The notes below the pieces were generated by a model. The model searched no databases. It had not been told where the DNA came from and saw only the letters and a list, made by a program, of their open reading frames with translations. A stretch of DNA of 43,988 nucleotides, from IMG/VR virus record IMGVR_UViG_3300024262_000064, positions 1 to 43,988 of that record; one strand, 5' to 3'. This document shows, piece after piece, positions 7,202-15,947 of this stretch. The first letter of the stretch is position 1. The number at the start of each line of letters is the position of its first letter. The position numbers were made by a program, and so were the translations under genes. Source of the DNA: a virus.

Positions 7202-7879
7202 ATGCCCGCTCCTATTCCAAAAAAAGTATATTTAAGTACAATAAAATCTAGATTGTTAGAACCTGCTCTAACTTCTCATTTTGTTTGTGCGTTTTCCCCT
7301 CCTCCAGGTCTTCAACCAGGAGAGGGATTTTATGGAGATAGAGTAAAAATATTTCCTGGATTAAATTATACAGCAAATCAAGAATTAATTACATTATCTT
7401 GTACAGATGCATCTCTTCCAGGATCATCTCTTGCAACAATTGATATTGATAACGATTTTCATGGAGTTTCTGAAAAACATGCATATCGTCGTTTATATGA
7501 TGATCGGGCAGATTTTACTTTTATTGTTGATGGTGAATATAAAATTTTAGATTATTTTGAGAATTGGATTTCATATTGTTCGGGAGAAGATGAAATAACA
7601 AGACAAGGAACATCAGAATATAGTTATAGGGTAAATTATCCAAAAAAATATAAAACAGACAAACTTTATATTACTAAATTTGACAGAAATATTTCCAATA
7701 GAGTACCTGGTAATTCAAATGCAACTAATGCGGGTAAAAATTATAAACCTTTTACCTATACCTTTGTAAATGCATATCCAATATCTATTGCATCTATGCC
7801 AGTTTCCTATGATACTTCTAATTTATTGAAATGCACTGTTTCCTTTTTCTATAGTAGATATGTAATTGGAAGAAGTTAA
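7202..7879 (+). CDS. gp54: tail-tube-like baseplate protein, probably gp54
   Basis: Probably the gp54-type initiator that, with gp48, starts tail-tube polymerisation; a gp19 tube-like protein is the alternative. The 225-aa sequence has the tube-fold pattern: LITLSCTDASLPGSS (cf. the 'D-x-x-x-x-P-G' loop of tube proteins), a charged strand pair AYRRLYDDRADFTFIVDGEY, an ILDYFENWISYC helix, and the C-terminal FTYTFVNAYPISIASMPVSY followed by a strand. The NAYP...I...S pattern is typical of tube and tube-initiator proteins. It is read divergently from gp4/gp48, from a late box 26 bp upstream. Start ATG 7202 has no strong Shine-Dalgarno. Confidence 0.65.
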   Translation: MPAPIPKKVYLSTIKSRLLEPALTSHFVCAFSPPPGLQPGEGFYGDRVKIFPGLNYTANQELITLSCTDASLPGSSLATIDIDNDFHGVSEKHAYRRLYDDRADFTFIVDGEYKILDYFENWISYCSGEDEITRQGTSEYSYRVNYPKKYKTDKLYITKFDRNISNRVPGNSNATNAGKNYKPFTYTFVNAYPISIASMPVSYDTSNLLKCTVSFFYSRYVIGRS

Positions 7880-7942: not shown

Positions 7943-8662
7943 ATGCCGTTACCTAAAATTTGTACACCAACTTATGAACTTGAGTTGCCATCTACAGGTC
8001 AAACAATTAAATTTAGACCATTTTTAGTTAAAGAAGAAAAACTTCTTGTTCTTGCATTAGAAACTGAAGATACTAAACAGATCACTAACAGTATTAAAAC
8101 AGTAATCAAAAACTGTATTGAAACTAAAGGAATTAAAGTTGAGGAATTACCTACATTTGACATTGAGTATTTGTTCTTAAATATTCGTGGAAAATCTGTA
8201 GGTGAAGATATTGAAGTTAATATCATTTGTCCTGATGATGGAGAAACTACGGTTCCTGTAAAAATTAATATTGATGAGATTCAAGTCCAAAAGAATGAAG
8301 ATCATACTAAAAAAGTTAAGATTGATGAGCAGATTATGATGGAAATGAAGTATCCATCATTAGAACAATTTATTAAGAGCAATTTTGACTTTAATTCTGA
8401 CAGTCAATTGGAACAGTCATTTGATCTAATTTCTTCTTGTATTGATAAAATTTATACTGAAGAAGAAGTGTGGATTGCTTCAGATGTTACTAAAAAAGAA
8501 CTATCAGAGTTTTTGGAGCAGATGAATTCTTCTCAGTTTAAATCAATTGAAAAATTCTTTGAGACAATGCCAAAATTATCTCATAAAATAAAAGTGAAAA
8601 ATCCAAATACTAAAGTTGAAAGTGAAGTTGTTCTTGAAGGGTTATCAAGTTTTTTCGCGTAG
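7943..8662 (+). CDS. gp26: gp26-like baseplate hub/tail chaperone protein
   Basis: Member of the T4 gp26 baseplate family (T4_baseplate). In T4, gp26 is needed for hub assembly, and proteins of this type precede the tape-measure region. Signature: MPLPKICTPTYELELPSTGQ, then KFRPFLVKEEKLLVLALE, FDIEYLFLNIRGKSVGE (the family's L-x-x-I-R-x-x-S-x-G block) and a C-terminal part ending EGLSSFFA. At 239 aa it is near the T4 length (208 aa). Just before its stop there is a T TTT TTC heptamer in the right phase for -1 slippage into the next small ORF; see the separate entry. That arrangement resembles the gpG/gpGT chaperone pairs of other tailed phages. Confidence 0.82.
   Translation: MPLPKICTPTYELELPSTGQTIKFRPFLVKEEKLLVLALETEDTKQITNSIKTVIKNCIETKGIKVEELPTFDIEYLFLNIRGKSVGEDIEVNIICPDDGETTVPVKINIDEIQVQKNEDHTKKVKIDEQIMMEMKYPSLEQFIKSNFDFNSDSQLEQSFDLISSCIDKIYTEEEVWIASDVTKKELSEFLEQMNSSQFKSIEKFFETMPKLSHKIKVKNPNTKVESEVVLEGLSSFFA
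8650..8656 (+). promoter_or_regulatory. candidate -1 ribosomal frameshift site (gp26 to downstream ORF)
   Basis: The bases T TTT TTC sit exactly as X XXY YYZ relative to the gp26 frame (Ser-Phe-Phe), two codons before its stop at 8660. In the -1 frame the last stop is at 8635-8637 and the frame then stays open through the slippery site into the ORF at 8665. The fusion would read Ser-Phe-Phe-Arg-Val-Ala-Met-Ser and be about 297 aa. The downstream ATG has no Shine-Dalgarno. Confidence 0.5.
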
Positions 8663-8664
8663 CA

Positions 8665-8835
8665 ATGTCCCATATGGATCTTGAGAATTACTTTGCTTTG
8701 AATTTCGCTTTACTTCAATATCACAAATGGAGTCTAACTGAAATTGAAAATCTAATTCCTTGGGAAAGGGACATTTATGTTGAAAAACTGAAAAATCATT
8801 TAGAGGAAGAAAAACTAAAACAGCAACAAAAGTAG
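8665..8835 (+). CDS. small ORF after gp26, candidate frameshift extension of the tail chaperone
   Basis: A 56-aa frame, too short for most ORF callers. It reads MSHMDLENYFALNFALLQYH, then KWSLTEIENLIPWERDIYVE and a charged Lys/Gln/Glu tail. It starts 2 bp after the gp26 stop in the -1 frame and ends 3 bp before the first giant tail gene. The short helix with a Trp-x-x-x-x-Ile-x-x-Leu core followed by ERDIY is like the C-terminal piece of tail-assembly chaperones (the T of gpGT). No ribosome-binding site is seen, so it may be made as a fusion with gp26 or by re-initiation. Length and placement would fit a role in folding the tape measure or hub; this is inference. Confidence 0.6.
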   Translation: MSHMDLENYFALNFALLQYHKWSLTEIENLIPWERDIYVEKLKNHLEEEKLKQQQK

Positions 8836-8838
8836 TAA

Positions 8839-11800
8839 ATGACAATTCCTCCAGCAGCGATTAAAAAACTTAAAACAAATACTAAGGACTATACTCAAAC
8901 TGCTGTTATTGTTCTAATAAGTTATGGCGTCTTTAAGCCACAAGATATTGATAAAGCAATTGCTACGGTTAAATCAAAAAGTACTTGGATTGTTCCATCA
9001 AAACTTCCAGATTATGATGATAGTATTCAAAACGATATACAAGTTGGCAGAGAAACTCCTGCGATTGTAAATATCAGAAATATTATTTCTGCTCATTATG
9101 GTATTACTGTAAAAGAGGAAAAGCAAGAAGAATTAGTTGAAGAAAAGCAAGAATTACCTGAAGAAGTTTCTAATCAAGAAATAAATGATGATGAAAATAA
9201 AAAATCTTCATCTGGAGTTTTAGTACTTTCTAATACTGCAGAAAAAAATGTAAATGAAGAAAAAAATGTAAATGAAGAAAAAAATGTAAATGAAGAAAAA
9301 ACTGCAAATGAAGAAGAATTAGTTGAAGAAGAAATAGACGAAAGAATTTTAAGACTTCTTGGTTTAGAACATATTTTTGATATTGATTATGGGACATATC
9401 TATCTCTTTTAAAGGAAAAATTAATTTCCTCTAGAATGACTGGTGGTAATCTTTCTGTTGAGGAAGATGAATTATTACGAGAAGAACTTAAAAGAGTAAA
9501 GGGTAAAGTTGGTAGATTTAAACCTAAAAAAAATGCAAAAATAAATGTAAGTAATATAACAGGAATAAATTTATTAAATCCTGCTAATAAAAAAGAATCT
9601 GATGATGAAAGTCCAGATGAAGATGATGAAAGTTTAGAGAAAGAAAAAGAAAAAGAAAAAAAAGAATCTATCTTTGATGGTATTCTTAATATACTAAAAA
9701 GTATTACTAAAACTGTAGATAATATTTACAGTGCTATTTCTTTGGGCAATACTTTATTAAATAATCAATTAGAATCTGATAGGAAAAAAAATGAAAATTT
9801 AGAAAGAAAAGGTGAAGAACAAAGATTAGAAACAAAAAAGGATGGGTTTTTAACAACAGCAAAAAAAATTCTTGCTCCATTTGAGAGTATTTTTGATAGA
9901 ATATTAAAATTTTTAATATTCACTATTTTAGGAAGAGCATTTAAACTTTTTATGGATTGGGCATCAGACCCAGAAAATAGAAAAAAACTTGAGTCTGTAG
10001 GTAGATTCTTAAAAGATTGGTGGCCTGCATTATTAGGTGCTTGGTTCTTATTTGCAACTCCTCTTGGTGGGTTTATAAGAACAATAATAGGAACAGTTGC
10101 AAAATTAACTTTTAAACTTGCTAAGTTTGCAATTCCAAAATTACTTAAATTTATATCCTCAACAGTTCCAAGAGCACTTGCATCCTCAGCAGTTCCAAAA
10201 GCACTTGCATCCGCAGCACTTCCAAAGGCAGCCGCAGCCGCAGCAGTTATTGGTGGTGGTGCTTATCTTGCAAATCAAGTTACTGGACAGCAAAAGGCAG
10301 CTCCTGTTCAGGCACAAAATAAAGCAAAAGTACAAACTGGAAAAACAATTGAAGTTCGTGGAACTGATACTGGAATTGATAAATCACCAAGTGTTGGTGA
10401 TATGGGCCCAGCTACTCCATTTGGATTACTTCAAGGAATTAATACTGGTGGTATTATAAAACCTTTAGTTGATGGAGTAAGTAATAAAAATCAAAAAACA
10501 AATATCAATAATATCAATAATAGTAAAACTTATAATACTGGTGGAAATATAACCAATCTAAGTAACTTAAGTAATAGTAAAACTTATAATACTGGTGGAA
10601 ATATAACCAATCTAAGTAACTTAAGTAATAGTAAAACTTATAATACTGGTGGAAATATATTTAGTGGAGTTGTAGATAAAGATACTGGTGAAACTGTTGC
10701 TGGCGCTGGCCCTGATACTCAATTTTTACCAATTGAGAGTGGTGGTGGTGCAGTTCTTCAACGTGGAGAATCTGTACTTCAAGTTGGTGCTCGTGAAAGG
10801 ATGATTCGGAAGGTAGGGGTAGATCCACTTACTTTTAATATTGGTTCTAATGCAAATAAACCTAGAAAAATAAATGCAGACACACTTGCAAGTTCTGGTG
10901 GATTGATTGGATTAAGTAATGGTGGTCAAATTGGAGGTAGTGCTCCTGTAGGTAATAATCCTAATTTTTGGGTTACTGCTGCAATAGCAGGAAAGGAAGC
11001 AGGACATATACCTCAAGGACAAGCAGATGTTGCTCAATCAATTTACAATCGCGCTAAAGTTGGAATATATCCAGGAGGAAAGGATATTAAAAAGATCATA
11101 ACTGCTCCTGGTCAATATCAACCAACTTTTGGTAATCCTAGTGCCTGGAATGCAATTAAAGATAAAAATAGTGCAATAAAAGCAGTTGGTGATTCTAAAT
11201 TACTTGATATGTCAATAAAAAGTATAACAAATTCTTCACTACAAAGAAACGCTGCTCAGTATATTGGGTCTAGAACTGATTTTCAAGGCGAAAGTCAAAA
11301 ACCACATATGAAACCAGAAAAGGGTGATATTACAAGAGGTAAAAATCACAACTTCTTTGGATGGTTTACTGAAAATGGATATAAACAAAAATTGAGTAGT
11401 CCTGCTCCACCTTTAGTTACACCATCAACTCCCTCACAAAAACCTAAAAGCATACCAAAAAAACCGGATAATATTTTTAGTGATATGTTTGGTGTAGCGA
11501 GTAGGATGTTTAATTCAGTCATTCCAAAAAAACAACATGCACAGAAAAAACAAGGTGGTGGTGTTATAAAATTACAGGGTGGTGGTGAAGTTACTTCAAC
11601 TCCATCTCCAAAACAACAGTTGAGTGAACTTCGTCAAATGAGAGCAAATTCATTAGAGAGGCAAAAAAGATTATCAGAATCATATGGATTAAAATCATTT
11701 GGATCTGATAGAATAATAAAAAGTACAGATGGAATTTATAATCCTCATAGTGCACCAGTTACTTCAACTCCATCTCCAAAACAACAGTTGAGTGAACTTC

Positions 11801-12309
11801 GTCAAATGAGAGCAAATTCATTAGAGAGGCAAAAAAGATTATCAGAATCATATGGATTAAAATCATTTGGATCTGATAGAATAATAAAAAGTACAGATGG
11901 AATTTATAATCCTCATAGTGCATCAGATAGGCGTATGTTTCCAATAATTGGTTCACCAAATATAAAAGGTATTGCAGCATTGCAAGAAGGAGAAGGTGTT
12001 GTTCCTCGTAACGTTATGAACAATATGGGCGAACATAATTTCAATAAACTTATTACATATTTTGATAATAGTAGAACTTCAAATGCTGCAAAACTTGGAT
12101 ACACAAAACCAAAAATAAATAATATACAACCACCGATAAAATCTAAGGGAGGAATTGTTCCAATTACTTTACCTCCTATTGGCAAATCTTCTGCAAATGT
12201 TCCGACTTCATCCACTTCAGGAACTCAAGTTCCTCCATTTTCTACAGTTTCTCCGGCGGCAATGTCGGTAAGAATTAATAATGCAGATATATATGGTATA
12301 GTAGGGTAG
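8839..12309 (+). CDS. large tail protein with membrane-like segments and SleB-type hydrolase domain
   Basis: 1156-aa virion protein, probably tape-measure or hub-associated. N-terminal 330 residues are charged and Glu/Lys-rich with short repeats. About residues 352-440 contain hydrophobic stretches (FDRILKFLIFTILGRAF; WWPALLGAWFLFATPLGGF), followed by an Ala-rich segment to ~478. Asn/Gly repeats follow (~560-610). A SleB-like cell-wall hydrolase domain lies at ~706-850, with NFWVTAAIAGKEAGHIPQGQ and DVAQSIYNRAK, where Glu of KEAG aligns with the family catalytic Glu. An exact 56-residue tandem duplication lies at ~918-1029. Such proteins can form or accompany the channel through which DNA crosses the envelope. 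Domain layout parallels the next gene, suggesting paralogy. Which of the two is the functional tape measure is not decidable here. Confidence 0.75.
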   Translation: MTIPPAAIKKLKTNTKDYTQTAVIVLISYGVFKPQDIDKAIATVKSKSTWIVPSKLPDYDDSIQNDIQVGRETPAIVNIRNIISAHYGITVKEEKQEELVEEKQELPEEVSNQEINDDENKKSSSGVLVLSNTAEKNVNEEKNVNEEKNVNEEKTANEEELVEEEIDERILRLLGLEHIFDIDYGTYLSLLKEKLISSRMTGGNLSVEEDELLREELKRVKGKVGRFKPKKNAKINVSNITGINLLNPANKKESDDESPDEDDESLEKEKEKEKKESIFDGILNILKSITKTVDNIYSAISLGNTLLNNQLESDRKKNENLERKGEEQRLETKKDGFLTTAKKILAPFESIFDRILKFLIFTILGRAFKLFMDWASDPENRKKLESVGRFLKDWWPALLGAWFLFATPLGGFIRTIIGTVAKLTFKLAKFAIPKLLKFISSTVPRALASSAVPKALASAALPKAAAAAAVIGGGAYLANQVTGQQKAAPVQAQNKAKVQTGKTIEVRGTDTGIDKSPSVGDMGPATPFGLLQGINTGGIIKPLVDGVSNKNQKTNINNINNSKTYNTGGNITNLSNLSNSKTYNTGGNITNLSNLSNSKTYNTGGNIFSGVVDKDTGETVAGAGPDTQFLPIESGGGAVLQRGESVLQVGARERMIRKVGVDPLTFNIGSNANKPRKINADTLASSGGLIGLSNGGQIGGSAPVGNNPNFWVTAAIAGKEAGHIPQGQADVAQSIYNRAKVGIYPGGKDIKKIITAPGQYQPTFGNPSAWNAIKDKNSAIKAVGDSKLLDMSIKSITNSSLQRNAAQYIGSRTDFQGESQKPHMKPEKGDITRGKNHNFFGWFTENGYKQKLSSPAPPLVTPSTPSQKPKSIPKKPDNIFSDMFGVASRMFNSVIPKKQHAQKKQGGGVIKLQGGGEVTSTPSPKQQLSELRQMRANSLERQKRLSESYGLKSFGSDRIIKSTDGIYNPHSAPVTSTPSPKQQLSELRQMRANSLERQKRLSESYGLKSFGSDRIIKSTDGIYNPHSASDRRMFPIIGSPNIKGIAALQEGEGVVPRNVMNNMGEHNFNKLITYFDNSRTSNAAKLGYTKPKINNIQPPIKSKGGIVPITLPPIGKSSANVPTSSTSGTQVPPFSTVSPAAMSVRINNADIYGIVG
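9247..9300 (+). repeat. three tandem 18-bp repeats (NVNEEK)
   Basis: Three back-to-back copies of an 18-bp unit encode Asn-Val-Asn-Glu-Glu-Lys in the acidic N-terminal region of the large tail protein. A degenerate fourth copy (Thr-Ala-Asn-Glu-Glu) follows. Confidence 0.9.
10519..10661 (+). repeat. 2.7 tandem copies of a 54-bp repeat
   Basis: Copies begin at 10519, 10573 and 10627, each encoding NSKTYNTGGNITNLSNLS; the third is partial. They are nearly identical at the DNA level, so they are recent. They lie in the Asn/Gly-rich linker before the hydrolase domain. Confidence 0.92.
11590..11925 (+). repeat. exact 168-bp tandem duplication
   Basis: Positions 11590-11757 and 11758-11925 are identical except for one base near the end (cca versus tca). 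Each encodes 56 residues beginning VTSTPSPKQQLSEL and ending in YNPHSA. The frame is kept, so the protein gains a second copy of a helical, Arg/Ser-rich segment. Confidence 0.95.
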
Positions 12310-12314
12310 TATGA

Positions 12315-15300
12315 ATGGCAATTAATACACAAAAATTATTACCACCGTCATCATCATCTGCCATTGTTAAATCTGGTAAAATAAAAATAAATAAAAAATC
12401 TAAAAATAATTCTAATAATAATACTATTAATATTATTAATGCAATAAAAAAAGAATTAGAAAAAATAAAAGAAAACTTAGAAAAAATTTATAATTTAGTA
12501 TTAGATAATAATAAACTTACTGAAAAAGATTTAGAAGTAAAAAGATTATCTGCAGAAAAGTTAAAATTTACAGAAAAAGAAAAAGGATTAGAAACAAAAA
12601 ATCCAGAAAAAAAAGATAAAGAAAGTGGTATATCTATTCCTAAACTTGGAATTTTTGATAGAATTAATAGATTTATTACCTTTACTCTTCTTGGTTGGGT
12701 AGCAGTCAGATTGGTTAAATATCTTCCTAAACTTTTAGAGTTTAGTAAGAATTTATTGCCGGTAATGGAATTTTTCAGTTCTCTTACTGCAAATTTCTTT
12801 AAAGGTGTTGTTGACTTTATTGATTTTGGGTATAGTGCTTATGATAAAGTTAAGGAATTTGTAAAGGGAATTGGTGGAGAATCATTTGAAAGTGCATTTG
12901 ATGGATTTAGTGACAACTTAAATAAGTTTATTAATCTCGCAATTATTGCCGGTATGGCAACAATGGGCGGGACTGATTTTGGGCCGGGAAAAAAAGGAGG
13001 TACACCTCCAACTATATCCAAACCTGGGCAAGGAGGAAGACCTAGAGTAACTACAAGTGGAGGCAGTGGAGCAGGAAGACCAGATTTAAGAAACCCACTA
13101 AGACAAAGACCTAAAATAACTGGAACTGGTGGAGGTGCTGCAGGAAGACCAGATTTGAGAAATCCTTTAAGGCAGAAACCAAAAATAACTGGTGCTGGCG
13201 GGAAAGTTCTTGGTAAATTAGGAGGTCTTGGGGGTAGAATACCAATTATCGGTGGACTGGTTAGTTTTATTATTTCTGTAATGAGTGGTGAACCTGTAGG
13301 TAGAGCGGCAGCAAAAGCAGTTGGATTTAGTATAGGAAGTGCTCTCGGAACTTTTGTTCCTGTTCCTTTCGTAGGAACTATTCTTGGAGGAATATTAGGA
13401 GATATTGTTGGTGGAGCACTTTATGATACTTTAGTTAGCAATAAACCAAAAAAACCAAAAGTAGTTGCAAAGTCAAAAGGTGGTCAAGTATCTACAGAAA
13501 ATCAAGAAGAAAAATTAAATATAAAAAATTCTTTATTACAAAAACCTAAAGTATCTACAAGAGGTGGTAAAACAGTAGGTGGAGTAGCACAGAGAAAAGT
13601 AAAAAAAGTTGTTAAACAAAATATAATTCATTCAAAATCTACACCTATTGATCCTGGTAAATCTGTAGGTGGAAAGGAAAATCTTAAAAAGATATTTCCA
13701 GAACCTTCTAAAGATAAAACTATATGGGAAAAAGCAAAAACAATTAATCCTTATGGTTTTACTACTGGAACTTCAGAAAAAATGGGAAAAATTCCATTTT
13801 TAGGTCCATTATTTAATATTTTTGGTAAAACATTACTGGGAGATTTTCCAAATAAAAATGATTATCAAAAAGTTGGAGTTTCTATTGGTGCGTGGATTAA
13901 TACTGCAATAAATCAGGGTAAATTGCAAGGAAATATTGTTTCGGCATTTTCTAACGGTGGTATGATAGAAGATATTGGAAGAAGTGATATTAGCGGATGG
14001 GTAGAAAAATCAGTGGAAGAATTGGTAAAAAATAAAGTTACTGAGGCAATCAATGAGTTAAAGAAAAATCTTGGAATAAAATCTGAAGATGATAAAGACC
14101 CTGATCATAAGGGAGGTGGGGCCGGTGGCGGCGGTGGCGGTTATGATGATTCTTCTCACGGAACACCTGGCCCTCCTGTTAAAGCAACTTCAGGATTTAA
14201 TGCTGGTAAAGGTGATAAAAGTAGAAAAATATTTTTACATTGGACCGCCTGGGATCATAATAAAAATTTTAATAATTACCATACAACCTTTTTAGGAGAT
14301 GGTAAAGCTATGAGAAATAGACCTTATGATGTGGATGGAACTGAGCATACTGCTGGTGCTAATACAAACTCTGTAGGATTATCAATTGCTGCCATGAAAG
14401 AAGGTAAAGAAAATAAATTTGGATCTTTTCCGCCAACAGTTGCACAAGTGAGTGCAATGTCTCTTGAGGCAGCTAGATTAGCTGTTGCTTGGGGATGGGA
14501 TGAATCTACCATTGACAAAAATGTGAGAACTCACGGTGAATGGGAAAGATATGCAACGAAATCTGGTATTTTGCCAGGAGCACCACAAAGATGGGATTTA
14601 GATAAATTAAGACAATCTGATCCAATGAATAGTGGTGGTGATAAACTTCGCAAAATGATTAAGGGTTATTTTAGGAAGTTAAAATCTGGAGTAAATATTG
14701 ATTCTTCCGGTAAAGTAATTGTTAAATCTAGTGGAAGTGCTTTAGCACAAATGTCATTAGAAACTGCTACTGAACTTGTTGATAGAGTTTCCAGTGGAGT
14801 TTCTGTTTCTGGTGGTAATGCAGACTTTTGGGCTTTGGCCGCAGTTGCATCTCTTGAAAGTGGAAATGCTCAAGGACAGGCTGATGTTGCTCAAGCAGTT
14901 TATAATAGAGTTGCTTCAAGATCAAATTTTGGGCAGGGTAGCAATCATACAATTAAAGGTCATATATTAGCACGAAAGCAATTTCAACCAGTAGAACAAA
15001 CTAAAGGTAGTTATGATATTTGGTCAAAAATTGTAGATAAAGAAACTGCTATAAAAGCACTTTCTGCTCACCCTAGAGGAAAAAATGCTGCAAAAATGAT
15101 TGAGACTGCGGCTGCTAATATAAGAAATCCTAATTTGAGAAAAAATTCTGCTGAATGGGTTGGCGGTAGAACTGATTTTGCAACACCCTCCGCTGCTAAT
15201 AAGTATCCTGGTGGTTTTGGATATAAAGAAAGACATGGACATCTATATGGATGGTATGTTGGTCCGGGTTCAATTGCTTATGGTAAGACTAATCCAGGTC

Positions 15301-15947
15301 CAGCACAAACACCTCAACTTGGAAATATAACAATTATAAGTGGAGAAAATGCAAACAATCTTAAATTTGGAAATCAATCTGGAAATATAAATTCAGCAAA
15401 AGAACTTGGGAAAAGTATGGGATTGAACATAACAAGTATGTTTAGAGAAGGGGATAGTGGTTATCATGGATCAGGAAGAGCTATAGATTTTCAAACTCCG
15501 GGGAAACCAGGAAACCGAGGTACACCTGGGCAAATGGCATATGCTAGAGAATTAATAAAGAGATATGGAAATACTATAAAAGAATTAATTTATACTCCAC
15601 TTGGATTTGGTATAAAAAATGGAAAAAAAGTTCCTTTAACTACTTGGGGTTCATTATCTCCACCTTGGGCAGATCTTCCCGAAGGGCATGTACTTAGAAA
15701 ATCTACTAATGCTATTCACTATGATCACGTTCACGTTGCATTTAAAGATGGTGGAACCATAGGTAAAATAGGAAAAAATATAAAATCCATACAAACTGAA
15801 GCATCTTATGAAGAAAATCAGTCTGTAATAATTTTTATACCAGTATTACAACCAGTACCAGTACCAATAAAAGGAAGAAATAGAACTACATTTATTGGTG
15901 GTGGTGGCAGTATGGTAAATAGAGATACTAGTGGATTTGTAAGATGA
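12315..15947 (+). CDS. large tail protein with three peptidoglycan-hydrolase domains
   Basis: 1210-aa virion protein. N-terminal 110 residues are Lys/Glu/Asn-rich and probably coiled. Hydrophobic segments follow at ~112-172 (IFDRINRFITFTLLGWVAVRL) and ~306-374 (Gly-rich, IIGGLVSFIISVMSGE). Three enzymatic folds come next. First is an Amidase_2/PGRP-like domain (~622-768) with zinc ligands His642 (FLHWTAW), His740 (RTHGEWE) and Asp761 (QRWDLD). Second is a SleB-like domain (~833-985) with VASLESGNAQGQADVAQAVYN. Third is a LAS/M15-type peptidase (~1002-1148) with YHGSGRAIDF (His1051, Asp1058) and DHVHVAF (His1138, His1140). It probably opens the cell wall during injection. The hydrophobic part is similar to the preceding gene product. 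Its last four bases (ATGA) overlap the next gene. Confidence 0.8.
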   Translation: MAINTQKLLPPSSSSAIVKSGKIKINKKSKNNSNNNTINIINAIKKELEKIKENLEKIYNLVLDNNKLTEKDLEVKRLSAEKLKFTEKEKGLETKNPEKKDKESGISIPKLGIFDRINRFITFTLLGWVAVRLVKYLPKLLEFSKNLLPVMEFFSSLTANFFKGVVDFIDFGYSAYDKVKEFVKGIGGESFESAFDGFSDNLNKFINLAIIAGMATMGGTDFGPGKKGGTPPTISKPGQGGRPRVTTSGGSGAGRPDLRNPLRQRPKITGTGGGAAGRPDLRNPLRQKPKITGAGGKVLGKLGGLGGRIPIIGGLVSFIISVMSGEPVGRAAAKAVGFSIGSALGTFVPVPFVGTILGGILGDIVGGALYDTLVSNKPKKPKVVAKSKGGQVSTENQEEKLNIKNSLLQKPKVSTRGGKTVGGVAQRKVKKVVKQNIIHSKSTPIDPGKSVGGKENLKKIFPEPSKDKTIWEKAKTINPYGFTTGTSEKMGKIPFLGPLFNIFGKTLLGDFPNKNDYQKVGVSIGAWINTAINQGKLQGNIVSAFSNGGMIEDIGRSDISGWVEKSVEELVKNKVTEAINELKKNLGIKSEDDKDPDHKGGGAGGGGGGYDDSSHGTPGPPVKATSGFNAGKGDKSRKIFLHWTAWDHNKNFNNYHTTFLGDGKAMRNRPYDVDGTEHTAGANTNSVGLSIAAMKEGKENKFGSFPPTVAQVSAMSLEAARLAVAWGWDESTIDKNVRTHGEWERYATKSGILPGAPQRWDLDKLRQSDPMNSGGDKLRKMIKGYFRKLKSGVNIDSSGKVIVKSSGSALAQMSLETATELVDRVSSGVSVSGGNADFWALAAVASLESGNAQGQADVAQAVYNRVASRSNFGQGSNHTIKGHILARKQFQPVEQTKGSYDIWSKIVDKETAIKALSAHPRGKNAAKMIETAAANIRNPNLRKNSAEWVGGRTDFATPSAANKYPGGFGYKERHGHLYGWYVGPGSIAYGKTNPGPAQTPQLGNITIISGENANNLKFGNQSGNINSAKELGKSMGLNITSMFREGDSGYHGSGRAIDFQTPGKPGNRGTPGQMAYARELIKRYGNTIKELIYTPLGFGIKNGKKVPLTTWGSLSPPWADLPEGHVLRKSTNAIHYDHVHVAFKDGGTIGKIGKNIKSIQTEASYEENQSVIIFIPVLQPVPVPIKGRNRTTFIGGGGSMVNRDTSGFVR
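13071..13208 (+). repeat. two 69-bp repeats (GRPDLRNPLRQ)
   Basis: Copies start at 13071 and 13140 and encode AGRPDLRNPLRQRPKITG and a near-identical second unit. Many synonymous differences show the duplication is older than those in the preceding gene. Confidence 0.85.

Follow-up and report, generated by a model that had tools for sequence, protein, structure and literature searches.

The window analysed here, which is the whole 43,988-nucleotide stretch of IMG/VR virus record IMGVR_UViG_3300024262_000064 and comes from a marine T4-like phage, carries a gp26-family gene followed directly by a small open reading frame (ORF) of 56 amino acids. Comparison of the two with their relatives suggests, with a probability of about 0.92, that they form a single recoded tail assembly chaperone (TAC) gene, in which a −1 ribosomal frameshift would join the gp26 frame to the frame downstream. 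Most probably the small ORF supplies the C-terminal domain of the resulting fusion and is not a separate gene. The junction contains the following elements.

7943–8662, forward strand: gp26-family gene encoding the short form of the chaperone (TAC-N, lambda gpG-like; 239 amino acids), identified by PF12322 and phrog_150.
8636–8641, forward strand: Shine-Dalgarno (SD)-like GAAGGG 5′ of the slippery site, a candidate dnaX-type stimulator on the basis of anti-SD pairing and codon bias.
8638–8835, forward strand: −1 frame, open through the heptamer and matching phrog_634, with its stop codon at 8833–8835.
8650–8656, forward strand: slippery heptamer T TTT TTC in X XXY YYZ phase, recognised by its phase and its conservation.
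8665–8835, forward strand: the 56-amino-acid ORF, usually annotated as 'gp51 / baseplate hub assembly catalyst'.

The 3′ end of gp26 reads AGT TTT TTC GCG TAG, so that the protein ends Ser-Phe-Phe-Ala ahead of the stop codon at 8660–8662, and the zero-frame codons TTT (8651–8653) and TTC (8654–8656) set the heptamer in exact X XXY YYZ phase. In the −1 frame the last stop ahead of the site lies at 8635–8637; from 8638 this frame is open, overlaps gp26 by 25 nucleotides and continues into the small ORF. An earlier note on this DNA had pointed to this arrangement, and its account of the gp26 end, of the position and phase of the heptamer and of the short open overlap proved correct throughout. 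The predicted fusion has 297 amino acids: 238 gp26 residues ending LEGLSSFF, followed by 59 residues (RVAMSHMDLENYF...) encoded by 8656–8832. In profile searches the window's gp26 matched Pfam PF12322 (E 1.1e-76) and phrog_150 (E 1.3e-80). PF12322 was matched by all 44 aligned gp26 members and phrog_634 by 41 of 41 homologues of the −1 domain, while a comparison of this domain with the known TAC and P2 GpE families in Pfam gave no convincing match.

For a single sequence, the chance of a heptamer falling within so short an overlap is roughly a few per cent, given that elsewhere in gp26 an X XXY YYZ heptamer stands in phase at 42 of 10,239 codon positions; it is conservation across lineages that carries the site beyond chance. 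T TTT TT[C/T/G] was found in phase near the end of gp26 at 185 of 205 related loci, corresponding to 43 lineages (clusters at 70% identity). In all 80 of the closest IMG/VR loci, and in S-PRM1, S-BM3 and P-SSM2, TTTTTTC occupies this position and no stop interrupts the −1 frame across it. The site is also found in T4-like phages that include Sinorhizobium phiN3, Rhizobium RHph_I1_9 and LG08, Vibrio D485 and R10Z, Pseudomonas pf16, Stenotrophomonas BUCT608, Aeromonas ZPAH1, and freshwater and estuarine cyanophages; when the Vibrio D485 protein was searched against viral contigs, no relatives were returned. The earlier note had asked whether related cyanophages keep the phase of the heptamer and the open −1 frame across it: they do so in all close relatives except S-SCSM1, as do many distant T4-like groups. 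Contigs L228–L230, from bacterial metagenome-assembled genomes assigned to Gammaproteobacteria, Prochlorococcus and Bacteriovorax, also carry gp26 and the frameshift site; they are probably phage contigs that were placed in these bins.

A second conserved feature lies upstream. Over the 43 lineages, an SD-like stretch 10–17 nucleotides 5′ of the heptamer pairs with the anti-SD sequence at a mean of −6.3 kcal/mol, against −2.0 kcal/mol for the background (p 6e-19). The stretch overlaps a conserved Glu-Gly, at which GAG is used over GAA in 17 of 23, compared with 6.1 expected. In the window the corresponding GAAGGG has a moderate anti-SD pairing of about −3.9.

If the heptamer were simply a by-product of a conserved Phe-Phe pair in AT-rich DNA, the overlap of the two frames would have no function. 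The window is indeed AT-rich and Phe-Phe is nearly invariant in gp26, but the codon statistics contradict this explanation, which we regard as barely credible and have set aside. The base 5′ of the Phe pair is T in 43 of 43 lineages (log10 P about −13.6), even though the codon it closes encodes any of six amino acids (Ser, Asp, Asn, Ala, Thr or His), and the first Phe codon of the site is TTT in all lineages (log10 P about −12). At other Phe-Phe pairs within gp26, by contrast, T TTT TTN occurs once in 42 and the codons are mostly TTC TTT. Moreover, among 67 near relatives there is no synonymous change at either Phe codon of the site, where the mean elsewhere is 0.40. It is also very unlikely that the frames are joined by transcriptional slippage on the T run and not by the ribosome. 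Slippage on longer runs, of nine, is documented in bacteria (PMC5009743), and the site is itself a run of six or seven T; yet the run is just six in most lineages and seven in nine lineages, and the ribosome is indicated both by the in-frame phase, which is exact, and by the conservation of the SD-like element upstream.

A different explanation, in line with most records, which give the small ORF as a separate coding sequence, is that ribosomes reinitiate on it by translational coupling, at an ATG just past the gp26 stop, and that it is a gene in its own right (gp51, 'hub assembly catalyst'). Such an ATG exists in the window, at 8665, 2 nucleotides beyond the stop, with a second at 8674, and Vibrio and Stenotrophomonas relatives have TAATG or TGATG overlaps, although these carry the heptamer as well. 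The earlier note had counted the lack of a ribosome-binding site for the small ORF in favour of frameshifting. There is none at 8665 or at 8674, as it had said; the argument drawn from this fails, however, because gp26 and the ORF beginning at 8839 also lack one, which makes a missing ribosome-binding site non-diagnostic in this phage and initiation without an SD sequence possible for the small ORF, and we have dropped it as evidence. What makes independent expression improbable is the state of the relatives. No ATG, GTG or TTG occurs among the 12 −1 codons that follow the site in 21 of the 43 lineages, or in 20 when S-SCSM1 with its broken frame is left aside, and in Aeromonas ZPAH1, where the domain is unannotated, there is no start before codon 33. 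The conserved beginning of the domain (FFR..LSHDSL..YY...) could not be made by reinitiation in these 20 lineages, so that the whole −1 domain would there be made by frameshifting only. Furthermore, the −1 frame is conserved ahead of any ATG (FFR, and His at position 8), and reinitiation leaves the fixed heptamer unexplained.

A number of observations nevertheless weigh against a frameshifted chaperone gene, or against parts of it. The window's ATGs at 8665 and 8674 leave room for reinitiation, which may yield a small protein of its own in addition to the fusion. S-SCSM1 keeps the heptamer and has an 11-nucleotide insertion (AATCCTAATAG; L083 2481–2530) after the gp26 stop that moves the domain into the +1 frame; this is one isolate with two records, and the insertion is either a real change or a sequence error. 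In the phage's own group there is no conserved stem 3′ of the site (RNAalifold energy 0, 68 sequences), and the slightly better folding of the 50 nucleotides 3′ of the site relative to other positions, seen over all lineages (mean z −1.23), is not found in the window itself; judged from these sequences, the upstream SD-like stretch appears a likelier helper of frameshifting than a downstream stem-loop. Finally, when a structural model of gp26 (built from an alignment of contig rows only; predicted local distance difference test score 85) was compared with the PDB using Foldseek, the HK97 chaperone 2OB9 ranked second and third without reaching significance (E 0.8–0.9; prob 0.28 and 0.16). Sequence comparison found no relatives among solved structures.

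Turning to T4 itself, its genome has two PF12322 members, gp26 (208 amino acids) and gp51 (249 amino acids), and the families to which they belong are homologous (E 1.1e-23). T4 gp51 matches phrog_150 from end to end, and its residues 147–246 match phrog_634. As the PHROG profiles may include T4 gp51 itself, a cleaner test of homology is the hhalign comparison of separately built alignments, in which the gp51-family C-terminus matched the −1 domain with a probability of 98.1 (E 1.3e-13). A C-terminal domain of this type was not found in T4-type gp26. The short and long chaperone pair that the earlier note had envisaged, on the pattern of gp26 and gp26T, is supported by these data, in which T4 gp51 corresponds to the proposed fusion encoded in a single frame. 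PF12322 is present as a single copy in all 16 non-T-even genomes examined and in five further records, whereas T4 and 14 genomes of the T-even type each have two such genes; a third match, seen in two records, is accounted for by a split at a record end and by a broken frame. The window record, a fragment, has one copy, and the two-gene arrangement was not found in this fragment; complete frameshift-type genomes also have one. A TTTTTT heptamer at the gp26 end is absent from the 8 two-gene phages checked. On the simplest reading of these sequences, most of the superfamily would have a single recoded chaperone gene, and the T-evens would have a short and a long gene that arose by duplication.

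In RB43 (L224 2001–3294) and Klebsiella KP5 (L227 2001–3295), gp51 and then gp26 lie in tandem, in the same direction and adjoining gene 25, whereas the order in T4 is divergent; the tandem pair looks like a trace of tandem duplication. In one T4-like contig (L218, G006:C1:125062–125666) the gp51 gene is split over two frames, by a sequencing error or in reality.

Other relatives have neither the heptamer nor a second gene. Vibrio K413 and the Ackermannviridae carry one PF12322 gene with a related domain in the −1 frame and no heptamer. It is conceivable, as a tentative proposal that we rate at somewhat less than even odds, that phages of the T4 superfamily have three or more interchangeable routes to the same pair of short and long chaperones: by SD-assisted slippage on T TTT TT[C/T/G]; from two paralogous genes, in the T-evens; and, in the Ackermannviridae and some Vibrio phages, through a −1 domain without a heptamer, which in Kuttervirus-type phages would also be without an ordinary start codon. 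The Ackermannviridae (L095 and L192–L209) have a conserved ATT TTC AT[TC] TAA at the gp26 stop in place of the heptamer; an ATG overlaps the stop in L206–L208 only, and the Kuttervirus type has ATT.

On the frameshift model, most ribosomes would terminate at 8660–8662 and release the short form of 239 amino acids. A minority would shift back by one base at the T TTT TTC heptamer (8650–8656), probably helped by pairing of the ribosome with the SD-like GAAGGG just upstream, and would thereby bypass the stop to make the 297-amino-acid long form with its extra C-terminal domain. The frequency of slippage would set the ratio of short to long form. In the model for lambda G/GT, the common part binds the tape measure and the extra domain of the minor long form recruits tail tube subunits (PMC5009743); by analogy with lambda gpG/gpGT, the part shared by the two forms would here bind a protein of the tape-measure type, and tail tube subunits would be recruited by the additional domain of the long form. 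That slippage takes place in the cell, the rate at which it does so and the binding roles are what we infer from the site, its conservation and its relatives.

The genes that flank the junction are as follows.

7202–7879, forward strand: tail-tube-like protein 5′ of gp26 (Phage_TTP_2, E 1.5e-13; phrog_45, E 5.9e-37).
8839–12309, forward strand: 1156-amino-acid tail protein directly 3′ of the junction, with a weak Hydrolase_2 match.
12315–15947, forward strand: 1210-amino-acid protein with a Hydrolase_2 domain, the second giant tail protein.

The ORF at 8839–12309 occupies the position of the tape measure gene in other tailed phages, and may by this analogy have that function; the large ORF that follows in Vibrio and Sinorhizobium relatives gave weak tape-measure matches (E 1e-6 to 4e-5). 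Hydrolase_2-like domains, of the cell wall hydrolase type, are present in both giant tail proteins (8839–12309 and 12315–15947), as though by duplication.

Most T4 relatives, including marine cyanophages with hundreds of recorded genomes, carry the frameshift site, while T4 appears to encode the two forms separately. Public records treat the small ORF as a separate gene, leave it unnamed or do not annotate it, where most likely it is the C-terminus of a fusion. Frameshifting in tail chaperones is a known kind of recoding, and Vladimirov, Gautam and Davidson are said to have treated T4-like chaperone genes in 2022 (doi 10.1016/j.virol.2021.11.003). According to that study, as cited in PMC10274946, some T4-like phages have one short and one long gene, and, as cited in PMC12846349, T4-like TAC-N genes have poly-T shift signals. 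As far as these citations convey it, the T4 duplication is already published, and the cyanophage frameshift site may be as well; the chaperone pair put forward in the earlier note is not a new idea for T4-like phages. In the literature searched, with Vladimirov et al. 2022 lying outside it, we found no trace of the SD-like element, the codon-level statistics or the exceptions described above.

Tail assembly chaperones of the lambda G/GT and P2 E/E+E′ kind were reportedly the subject of work by Xu, Hendrix and Duda in 2004. Like these, the chaperone proposed here would have short and long forms with a common N-terminus; it differs in that gp26 is longer, in its site, T TTT TT[C/T/G], and in a stimulator that looks SD-like, and no significant sequence or fold match to them was found. 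The E. coli dnaX gene likewise combines a heptamer with an upstream SD-like stimulator, at a spacing similar to that seen here. DnaX nevertheless uses A AAA AAG and a 3′ stem-loop, and shifts at about 50% (PMC5009743), whereas there is no conserved 3′ stem in this phage's group. Another parallel is offered by the TAC locus of phage Adele (Vandenendeviridae/Andersonviridae; PMC12846349), compared here by description, which also has a conserved −1 frame and a poly-T motif at the end of TAC-N, and whose downstream part has likewise been misannotated as a hypothetical gene, although the phage families are different and the motif is GTTTTT. T4 was named in a 2016 review as an exception to the near-universal frameshift of tail chaperones (PMC5009743). 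Its gp26 and gp51 share the PF12322 domain with the window's gene, and gp51 has the same C-terminal domain fused in frame; they differ from the window in being two separate paralogous genes with no slippery site.
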